A stretch of 64,000 bases of DNA, from assembly GCF_021390395.1 (NCBI RefSeq), contig NZ_JAJUWT010000004.1, positions 62,001 to 126,000 on the forward strand, read 5' to 3'. Position 1 is the first letter of the stretch; every line of letters begins with the position of its first letter. A program made the translations under genes and the position numbers. The notes beneath the pieces were generated by a model. That model was not told the DNA's origin. It did no database searches and was given only the letters and a program-made list of their open reading frames with translations. This stretch comes from Saccharothrix sp. S26 (GTDB taxonomy: Bacteria; Actinomycetota; Actinomycetes; Mycobacteriales; Pseudonocardiaceae). Positions 32,892 to 34,966 of the stretch are shown here, piece after piece.

Positions 32892-33365
32892 ATGAGCGAA
32901 ATGCGCGTCGTCGGCGTGCGGGTGGAACTGCCCGCCAACCAGCCGATCCTGCTGCTGCGCGAAACCGAGGGCGAACGGTACCTGCCGATCTGGATCGGAT
33001 CGGTCGAGGCCACGGCGATCGCGTTGGAGCAGCAAGGTGTCCGTCCTGCCCGGCCGTTGACGCACGACCTGCTCAAGGACGTCATCGGAGCCCTCGGCCG
33101 GCAGCTGGAGCAGGTGCGGATCACCGACCTGCAGGAGGGCACGTACTTCGCGGAACTCGTCTTCGACGGCGACATCCGCGTCTCGGCGCGGCCCAGCGAC
33201 TCGGTGGCGCTGGCGCTGAGGATCGGCGTGCCGATCCACGCGGAGGAGTCCGTGCTGGCGGAGGCGGGCCTCATCATCCCGGACGAGCAGGAGGACGAGG
33301 TCGAGAAGTTCCGCGAGTTCCTCGACTCCGTCTCCCCGGAAGACTTCCGCGGCGCCGACACGTAG
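32892..33365 (+). CDS. Bifunctional nuclease (DUF151) family protein
   Basis: The 157-residue protein is a full-length BFN/DUF151 domain: MRVVGVRVELPANQPILLL, YLPIWIGSVEATAIALEQQG, RPLTHDLL, RPSDSVALALRIGVPIHAEE. It corresponds to Rv1829 in the conserved gcv-garA block. Plant homologues show DNase and RNase activity; the bacterial role is unproven. ATG 32892 follows GAGGGAGGCGAG. Right after it the block is interrupted by the inverted-repeat element at 33.5-34.0 kb. Confidence 0.9.
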   Translation: MSEMRVVGVRVELPANQPILLLRETEGERYLPIWIGSVEATAIALEQQGVRPARPLTHDLLKDVIGALGRQLEQVRITDLQEGTYFAELVFDGDIRVSARPSDSVALALRIGVPIHAEESVLAEAGLIIPDEQEDEVEKFREFLDSVSPEDFRGADT

Positions 33366-33562
33366 TACCGCGGTTCGCGCGCAGGCAGGTGGGCGGGTCG
33401 CTCCTCGTGCCGTTCGGGCCGGTTGGTGCGGTCGTCCTGTCGGGTCGCTTGACCGGTGTCGTGCGGTTCAAGAGCGCAAAGATCAAAAGCGTCCTCGCCG
33501 GACGGGCAGATCAGCAGGATGACCCCAACTGCCCCCTGGATGCTGCGGTTGCGTCGTGGGTC

Positions 33563-33709
33563 GGGTTTCGTGTCATCCCACCGACCTCCCTCCGGGCTAC
33601 CACACGCGTCAAGGGGGCGACATCGGTCAACGCCGCAGCCCGCAGTGGACTACGCCCCCTTGACACGTGCGGTAGGGCAAAGCCAGGTCGGCGGGATGAC
33701 ACGAAGCCC
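33563..33709. repeat. Hairpin 1 of the inverted-repeat element
   Basis: B1-C1 pairs with C2'-B2' over two stems of about 25 bp with few mismatches, separated by a small internal loop, with a terminal loop of roughly 40 bases. As RNA it would be a very stable two-part hairpin. The stem sequence GTGTCATCCC is shared with hairpin 2 and the 44.8-kb copy. Confidence 0.75.
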
Positions 33710-33820
33710 TCCTGCTGAAAAAGGAAGGGCATCGCGGCCTCACCGCGCCGGACGAGACTGAACCCCAGGCCCGCCGGCGACCCCCGATCCCCTCCACTGG
33801 GCGTCTTTGCTGCAAAAGTA

Positions 33821-33973
33821 GGGCTTCGTGTCATCCCGCCGACCTGGCGCAGCCCTACCGCACGTGTCAAGGGGGGCGCGGGTTCAGCTTTGCCCGCGGC
33901 CTTCACTGTGGGCCGCGCCCCCCTTGATACGTGTGGTAGCCCTTGTGGAGGTCGGTGGGATGACACGAAACCC
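33821..33973. repeat. Hairpin 2 of the inverted-repeat element
   Basis: B3-C3 pairs with C4'-B4' in the same way as hairpin 1, with compensating differences such as CGCACGTGTC against GATACGTGTG. Together with the 36-bp outer arm it reads, on the minus strand, as a second copy of the left-hand unit. Confidence 0.75.
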
Positions 33974-34233
33974 GGACCACCCACCCAACCGGACGATCCA
34001 GGCGTAGTCGGGGTCATCCTGCTGATCTGCCCGTCCGGCGAGGACAGCTTTTGAAGCTTCTACGTCAACGGTGACAACACCGTCCACCGCCCCACAAGCG
34101 CCTCACAGCGCGTCGCGACCCGGCCTCACACCCCACCATCAGGCGTCGCTCGCTCGGGTTACACAACGTCAACCCCGCCTCGCTAAACGATCACTAAACG
34201 TCACCCGAATGGCTTACGACGGGCGGCTCTCTC

Positions 34234-34256
34234 GACCTCTACCTTAGGTTGAGGTC
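34234..34256. promoter_or_regulatory. 23-bp near-perfect palindrome before the second MerR gene
   Basis: GACCTC-TACCTTAGGTT-GAGGTC is symmetric except for T/A pairs on its axis and at positions 7 and 17. It looks like a MerR-family operator and lies 22 bp upstream of the -35 box of the promoter at 34278. The 34050-34230 stretch before it holds a CTAAACG direct repeat (34186, 34196) and no gene. Confidence 0.55.
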
Positions 34257-34277
34257 AGACACGCCCCGCGCGTCGCG

Positions 34278-34306
34278 TTGACCTGCCCCCTAGGCGGTCT
34301 TACCGT
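34278..34306 (+). promoter_or_regulatory. Housekeeping-type promoter of the MerR gene
   Basis: TTGACC (34278-34283) and TACCGT (34301-34306) are separated by exactly 17 bp. Transcription would start about 90 bp before GTG 34400. Confidence 0.65.
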
Positions 34307-34399
34307 CGAACTCAGGTGAATTGCCACGGTGTGATTCGGACACCGCGGCGGCTTCACGTTGGTCGCCGGTCGTCGTGACCGGACCGAGGGGAGGCAGGC

Positions 34400-34966
34400 G
34401 TGGTCGAGGAAGCGCCCATCCGGGCCGGATCCGGCGAACAGGGTGAGCTGTTCCCGGACTCCTCGCTGCCGGACGAACTGGTCGGGTACCGCGGCCCCGC
34501 CGCGTGCCAGATCGCGGGCATCACCTACCGCCAGCTGGACTACTGGGCGCGCACGGGGTTGGTCAACCCGACGATAAGGAGTGCCCAGGGCTCCGGCAGC
34601 CAACGGCTCTACTCGTTCAAGGACATCCTGGTCCTCAAGGTCGTCAAGCGGCTGCTGGACACCGGTGTCTCGTTGCAGAACATCCGGGTCGCGGTCGACC
34701 ACCTGCGTCGCCGCGGCGTGCAGGACCTGGCCCGGATCACGCTGTTCAGCGACGGCACCACGGTCTACGAGTGCACCTCGCCGGAAGAGGTGGTCGACCT
34801 GCTCCAAGGCGGCCAGGGGGTGTTCGGGATCGCGGTCTCCGGCGCGATGCGGGAGATCAGCGGCACGATCCACGACTTCCCCGCCGAACGGGCGGACGGC
34901 GCGGAGATCGTGGAGCCGGCCGACGACGAGCTGTCCCGTCGCCGTCGCACGAGGGCCATCGGCTGA
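34400..34966 (+). CDS. MerR-family regulator (Rv1830-like)
   Basis: The 188-residue protein has a MerR-type DNA-binding domain (YRGPAACQIAGITYRQLDYW, ARTGLVNPTIRSAQGSGSQRLYSFKDIL) and a C-terminal region with GVQDLARITLFSDGTTVYEC and a charged tail. It matches the second MerR gene of the conserved gcvH-garA-ftsR-bfn-merR-gcvP block. GTG 34400 follows GAGGGGAGG. It has its own promoter here, and the repeat element separates it from bfn. Confidence 0.87.
   Translation: MVEEAPIRAGSGEQGELFPDSSLPDELVGYRGPAACQIAGITYRQLDYWARTGLVNPTIRSAQGSGSQRLYSFKDILVLKVVKRLLDTGVSLQNIRVAVDHLRRRGVQDLARITLFSDGTTVYECTSPEEVVDLLQGGQGVFGIAVSGAMREISGTIHDFPAERADGAEIVEPADDELSRRRRTRAIG

Follow-up and report, generated by a model that had tools for sequence, protein, structure and literature searches.

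The composite element between bfn and merR

The stretch of DNA analysed here (the window: 64,000 nt from Saccharothrix sp. S26) carries genes in the Pfam-assigned order gcvH-FHA-merR-bfn-merR-gcvP, and a composite element lies in the spacer between bfn and the second merR gene (Table 1). An earlier sequence-only reading had described a perfect 36-bp inverted repeat enclosing two long hairpins of the same blocks, and both were recovered. An inverted-repeat search found outer arms of 45 nt at 33491-33535 and 34001-34045 (93% complementary, with the perfect 36 bp at 33491-33526 and 34010-34045), together with inner hairpins at 33563-33619/33653-33709 (arms 93% complementary) and 33821-33881/33913-33973 (arms 87%). 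The two inner hairpins match each other as inverted copies, which bears out the proposal of two facing copies of one unit of about 230 bp. The composite is two copies of this unit in opposite orientation, with the 5' ends inward and the 3' hairpins outward. Folded as a single strand, 577 nt gave -448.8 kcal/mol compared with -250.1 ± 7.1 kcal/mol in 100 dinucleotide shuffles (z -28), which rules out a chance palindrome. Between 33300 and 34300, no match to a sigma-70-type promoter was found, and the single match to the terminator consensus does not exceed chance (0.6 expected).

Table 1. Positions of the composite element and its parts in the window; a dot marks features without a strand.
Feature	Position	Strand	Basis or remark
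Whole composite, two units back to back	33477..34057	.	conserved stretch common to the C3 and C10 copies; inverted repeat
Left unit	33479..33710	folded strand (-), 5' end ~33710, 3' end ~33479 (approximate)	R1 hairpin and 3' domain; mismatch asymmetry for the strand
Right unit	33818..34057	folded strand (+), 5' end ~33818, 3' end ~34057 (approximate)	R1 hairpin and 3' domain; mismatch asymmetry
Four-way-junction hairpin, left unit	33568..33703	(-)	R1 match of 118.8 bits; itself one of the 12 R1 seeds
Four-way-junction hairpin, right unit	33827..33968	(+)	R1 match of 122.6 bits; itself one of the 12 R1 seeds
Middle segment separating the two hairpins	33704..33826	.	conserved among composites
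3' hairpin A, left unit (GTCC-GGCGA-GGAC)	33491..33503	(-)	T-rich tract next, 33490-33479
3' hairpin A, right unit	34033..34045	(+)	T-rich tract next, 34046-34054
Segment E, left unit (third copy of the B-arm motif, can pair with B')	33504..33521	(-)	
Segment E, right unit	34015..34032	(+)	

The bfn-merR spacer varied between 384 and 1168 nt across the 25 genus genomes compared. With the window element as query, it gave matches in G004, G010, G014 and G016, a fragment or diverged unit in G003 and G021, and no match in the other 18 of the 25 genomes. The gene order is present as first described, but the statement that the element splits a conserved operon was too strong, since even spacers that lack it are long and differ in length. 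By eye, a stretch upstream of merR (window ~34150-34400) is conserved among the genus genomes read and may hold the merR promoter. Given the long variable spacer and this conserved stretch, bfn and merR need not share one transcript.

Dispersed copies in genome, genus and family

The genome of origin (9.08 Mb in 54 contigs) contains 46 matching pieces, counting both strands. Among these are three further full composites with 94% (contig C3), 92% (C10) and 86% (C4, elsewhere) identity, plus about a dozen partial or single copies. An assembly duplication and a lack of dispersed copies, the two outcomes that would have spoken against the first description, can both be set aside: composites of this divergence recur at three other places, and copies are dispersed in the genome as well as in the genus. 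A second short repeat (GATTTGACATGGGGCCCTTACG and its surroundings) adjoins three single units of this genome (L015:2360-2381, L016:1954-1975 and L018:2305-2326).

Within the genus, 20 of 25 genomes showed a DNA match to the element, with 0 to 59 pieces of the window sequence type per genome; two of the five genomes without a match (G008 and G011) hold four and three diverged units, respectively, as detected with the hairpin model R1 described below. Exact 24-mer matches in named contigs comprised at least 80 stretches. Those listed all come from three Saccharothrix strains, which points to Saccharothrix as the genus, and in six or more of the 80 the contig breaks off inside a copy. The repeat occurs in modular forms, namely single units, composites and remnants with the A block only. 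Among 126 non-redundant units we counted 16 adjacent pairs, all of them in loci of the genus Saccharothrix and all with the left unit on the minus strand, the right unit on the plus strand and 96-136 bp separating the hairpins. As the arrangement is identical in 16/16 pairs, the composite seems to be inherited or copied whole in Saccharothrix. Units of genus g17 are oriented the other way, with their T-rich ends together (loci L176, L177 and L184).

To follow the repeat through the family, we searched with a 68-nt end block and with R1, which was built from 12 seed hairpins (140 positions, 48 pairs). The end block matched 39 of 150 Pseudonocardiaceae genomes in 21 of 46 genera. When 20 of these stretches were inspected, two (L169 and L170) looked like chance matches in coding sequence, while the remaining ones had the end block, mostly within the same architecture and with diverged sequence, and a few (e.g. 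L171 and L184) were without the full hairpin. R1, which covers the hairpin of about 140 nt, matched 90/150 genomes and 33/46 genera (E up to 0.001), a count that includes the 11 genomes from 10 genera which had provided the seeds.

In a class-wide sample of 296 genomes, searched with stricter filters (E up to 1e-6), a single genome besides the genome of origin matched (G382), and it was also the only match among the 40 genomes of its own family. The unit is therefore nearly confined to the Pseudonocardiaceae within the sampled genomes, with one outlier, whose copy possibly arrived by lateral transfer. One locus of this outlier (L223) holds a clear member of the repeat, with the hairpin at ~958-1089 and the 3' domain at 1132-1182; the latter carries the pattern GCCTGCCCGCCCGGCGAGGGC, as other genera do. 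At the other G382 locus inspected (L219), the 3' domain was not found.

Window positions 33000-34500 and ten loci of other genomes matched no Rfam RNA at the gathering threshold, and the sub-threshold matches were to microRNA, snoRNA and norovirus families only (E down to 0.00013). Phage or plasmid cargo was rejected: the 50,697 phage records and 72,556 plasmid records searched gave no match, and no viral contig contained the exact 19-mer of the 3' hairpin. A search of the open-licence PMC literature found no paper that appears to describe the repeat.

A conserved fold on one defined strand

The unit comprises about 235-260 nt. Its hairpin forms a four-way junction, in which stem B contributes 19 pairs, stem C 23 pairs and each of two mini-hairpins three pairs. 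In the 12 seeds, 87.3% of the cells pair and 28 of the 48 pairs changed on both sides (0/500 shuffles), though these pair counts lean towards structure because the structure was drawn from the same 12 seeds. Covariation in these seeds was 0.396; shuffles gave 0.123, and sliding the structure never gave more than 0.095. A weakly supported 5' hairpin, D, has seven-pair arms in 37 of 89 units versus 12% in shuffles.

Segment E, located just before the 3' hairpin, is a repeat of the 5' arm of stem B. In 24/27 cases its pairing with its own B' is stronger than the cross-genus mean (-22.0 versus -18.5 kcal/mol on average; 0/2000 permutations). For several units the B' arm used in this test was the wrong one (L162, L180, L186 and one of L166 at the least), and relatedness was left uncontrolled. 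A separate small hairpin within E, judged by eye, was inconsistent across genera.

To determine which strand folds, we counted mismatched cells on the complement of the folded strand, which runs from A to B'. After removal of reverse-strand duplicates and identical sequences, 51 of 116 rows remained for the multi-genus set (22 genera) and 79 of 150 for Saccharothrix, the latter drawn from the best 150 of 203 R1 matches. The 51 units showed 103 A.C versus 9 G.T cells, next to 2238 Watson-Crick and 96 other cells. The A.C mismatches are spread over 23 pair positions and 21 genera, the G.T mismatches over 8 positions and 4 genera, which corresponds to 60 versus 8 combinations of position and genus. 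Saccharothrix alone yielded 261 A.C versus 13 G.T cells at 15 versus 7 pair positions; most of these A.C cells fall on few pair positions, and cells count sequences rather than independent events. On the strand of the seeds, which is likewise the complement of the folded strand, a single G.U occurs among 573 cells.

Rows were taken on the strand scored higher by R1, whose seeds carry A.C cells. The A block was present on the expected side only in 46/51 and 73/79 units of the two sets, on both sides in 1 and 5, and on neither in 4 and 1. Restricting the count to rows confirmed by the A block left 90 versus 8 and 242 versus 13 A.C and G.T cells. In unpaired columns the numbers were 4 versus 5 for the multi-genus set (a small control) and 32 versus 58 for Saccharothrix; as the asymmetry is missing or reversed there, a strand mutation bias is disfavoured. 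Since A.C on the strand read equals G.U on its complement, it is the complement that folds, and block A lies at the 3' end of that strand. Thus, one defined strand folds and not the other. We infer that this strand is RNA, which the mismatch asymmetry favours over single-stranded DNA; by itself the asymmetry does not separate the two, because G.T is tolerated in single-stranded DNA too.

The folded strand ends with the pattern GCC(C/G)-NNCC-GGCGA-GGNN, whose fixed letters, including the loop, are conserved by construction, as it served as the search pattern. Its two free stem pairs covary (GT/AC, GC/GC, GG/CC and CT/AG). Behind the hairpin, T makes up 46% of nt 1-20 versus 14% of nt 31-60 at 135 Saccharothrix sites. 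The share of T in the 15 nt that follow is more than double that at nt 31-60 in 13 of 20 genera, with the outlier f18 entered as one genus; in 7/20 (g5, g14, g46, g22, g31, g41 and f18) the enrichment is below twofold or absent. The tract is missing in G135 (4% vs 8% at 19 sites), and g13 has a 3' hairpin with a different stem around CTCGCC and, by eye, no T tract. The Saccharothrix units have variable T-rich tails built of repeated CTTTTGATC-like pieces. In g13 (L252-L258 and L262-L267, genomes G075 and G036) an apparent tandem array of a ~65-70-bp sequence (GCGGGTCACTTTGAGAGCGGGGGCGCGGG..TTTTCGACGCATCC) was seen by eye ~60-350 nt before many units of the repeat, and pieces similar to this array recur, again by eye, in the linker and apical loop of the unit. 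Intrinsic terminators consist of a G+C hairpin with a T-rich tract behind it. The folded strand resembles them at its 3' end, over the last ~25 nt only, and some genera have a weak tract or none.

Genomic context, spread and nature of the repeat

Only 2 of the 126 units lie inside a called ORF. For 83 units genes were called on both sides; the other 43 of the 126 had none on one side and were left out. Genes were called with a home-made codon score trained on these same loci. The genes are convergent at 29 units, in tandem at 46 and divergent, the rarest context, at 8. Beside tandem genes, the folded strand was the same as that of the genes in 22 cases and opposite in 24, and a cis-element of the neighbouring gene with fixed orientation was rejected on these numbers. 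In five closed genomes, 31 of 66 copies are on the leading and 35 on the lagging strand (p 0.71), which also speaks against lagging-strand insertion. Reverse-strand duplicates were dropped for this count, as were seven hits of 50-58 bits, the weakest of the search; the lengths of G133 and G022 were rounded and the terminus was set opposite dnaA. The five genomes include the siblings G036 and G075, which have sites in common. The origin half of the chromosome holds 50 of the 66 copies, in line with an early suggestion of a chromosomal architecture site, but nothing directly favours that role. One unit (L270, G036:C1:469806-470567) follows shortly after a gene that gave a DnaA-type AAA match. 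We take its product for an IstB-like protein, and the neighbourhood is probably a matter of chance.

Amplification was lineage-specific, as G075 carries three copies that are identical over 140 nt at different places. Nine right flanks of G075 units were sought in the sibling G036, and eight locus pairs were compared. Five of the eight align through the site and the G036 unit is there as well, as judged by its A and B motifs; two of these (L273 and L278) have a shorter hairpin according to motif spacing, in L273 also according to its hit in the search of the closed genomes. At L262/L272, A and the linker are present in G036 and the hairpin is missing, and at L261/L279 one side aligns and neither the A nor the B motif is found. 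At L260/L275, the element is inverted at the same spacer in the siblings, with some right-flank sequence inside the inversion. None of the eight pairs provided a clean empty site with target duplication, and none was obtained in Saccharothrix, where the bfn-merR spacers are too divergent.

Among the 25 genus genomes, the Y1 transposase domain (Y1_Tnp, PF01797) was found in five, with none of the copy-rich genomes G000 (the genome of origin), G004, G010 and G016 nor G022 among them. The reverse transcriptase domain (RVT_1, PF00078) was found in ten, including copy-rich G004, and was absent from copy-rich G000, G010 and G016 and from G014 and G022. With neither PF01797 nor RVT_1 found in the genome of origin, Y1/RAYT and reverse transcriptase were rejected as present mobilisers there.

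By description, the nearest known kind would be the BOX, RUP and SPRITE repeats of Streptococcus pneumoniae. According to PMC3049150, these are small interspersed repeats that fold extensively; they are proposed to be slow-moving parasites, and some BOX elements have been shown to be expressed. The Saccharothrix repeat shares with them that it is multi-copy, intergenic, non-coding, modular and extensively folded; it differs in a fold conserved over many genera, in the wobble bias of one strand and in the terminator-like 3' end. REP elements (PMC2817692) are extragenic palindromes of about 20-40 nt with a GTAG-type head, often in inverted pairs. The repeat resembles REP and REPIN sequences as an extragenic palindrome in inverted pairs, but its unit has ~235 nt and its 3' hairpin (GNCC-GGCGA-GGNC) is without a GTAG-type head when set against the REP list of that paper; unlike REP/RAYT systems, the five genomes named above for Y1_Tnp were without PF01797.

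On balance, we think that this is probably a selfish-type small interspersed repeat which carries a structured RNA and occurs here as a back-to-back pair. The dispersal of the repeat is shown, and so are its conservation across the family, the covariation of its pairs and the folding of one strand but not the other. The proposals of a mobile element pair and of a structured RNA, offered as alternatives by the sequence-only reading, would each be partly right and describe one thing, in that dispersed copies carry a strand-specific conserved fold; mobilisation, function and the RNA itself would be the conjectural parts. In this reading the unit has multiplied repeatedly in the chromosomes of the Pseudonocardiaceae, and each copy specifies one folded strand with a long hairpin and four-way junction, a linker, segment E, the 3' hairpin with its GGCGA loop and mostly a T-rich tract. 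This strand would be an RNA, transcribed outward in the composite, whose 3' hairpin may end or protect it like an intrinsic terminator, and E may compete with B for pairing with B'. The repeat would behave as a parasitic element, as has been proposed for BOX, RUP and SPRITE, and be copied in trans by some factor. Within the window, bfn and the right unit would be read together, and this unit could terminate the bfn transcript; the left unit lies on the opposite strand.

A reading that we hold to be rather unlikely is that the folded strand is single-stranded DNA. The repeat would then be non-autonomous and REP/IS200-like, and an HUH enzyme would move it by way of a hairpin intermediate. This would account for a strand-specific fold with small stable hairpins, for dispersed palindromes and for composites of inverted units, but the distribution of Y1_Tnp (Y1 being the class searched among HUH enzymes), the lack of a leading/lagging bias in the five closed genomes and the missing GTAG-type head tell against it. 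A little less likely still, in our estimate, is a host-functional intergenic element, for instance an insulator between genes or a terminator that works in both directions, which selection would maintain and recombination would spread. The 3' hairpin with a T-rich tract in 13/20 genera, the two outward 3' hairpins of composites and the rarity of divergent gene pairs agree with such a role. Copy numbers from 0 to 59 pieces inside one genus (even with diverged units in G008 and G011) and the absent strand preference beside tandem genes do not, and a terminator needs no long conserved hairpin, nor does the tract persist in all lineages.

Prokaryotic MITEs are short, non-coding, dispersed elements with terminal inverted repeats; the repeat is likewise short, non-coding and dispersed, and composites have such ends where single units do not. 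If a DD(E/D) transposase moved the composite as a classical MITE, for which the 36-bp arms would serve as terminal inverted repeats, the perfect ends and the composites of 86-94% identity at three other places would be explained. We nevertheless regard this as very improbable: single-ended units with one A end and without terminal inverted repeats are widespread, also in other genera, no target duplication was seen in the eight locus pairs, and a duplex-binding transposase has no need of inner pairs that covary with a strand-specific wobble bias. An RNA-mediated SINE-like element, copied by reverse transcriptase in trans, appears to us the least credible of all. The RNA-like folded strand, the variable T-rich tails of Saccharothrix and the RVT_1 match of G004 would suit it, but the absence of RVT_1 from three of the copy-rich genomes does not, although past activity is possible.

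The selfish repeat with a structured RNA can be put more boldly, in a form that we consider speculative and doubtful as a whole: a family-wide selfish element that is a non-coding RNA gene of ~235 nt with a bistable core (B:B' or B':E) and its own terminator, that spread by an undescribed mechanism through most Pseudonocardiaceae genera, in hosts possibly without any reverse transcriptase or Y1 transposase, and that also forms fixed back-to-back pairs. The repeat also has a practical side, as it breaks draft assemblies, with contig ends falling inside copies. The working form of small interspersed repeats is rarely known; here, a definite molecule can be sought, since the mismatch asymmetry names the folded strand over 22 genera. 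If that molecule is RNA, the Pseudonocardiaceae would harbour a multi-copy structured RNA unrecognised by Rfam 15 in the loci searched. How the repeat multiplies without a Y1 transposase or reverse transcriptase is a testable question.
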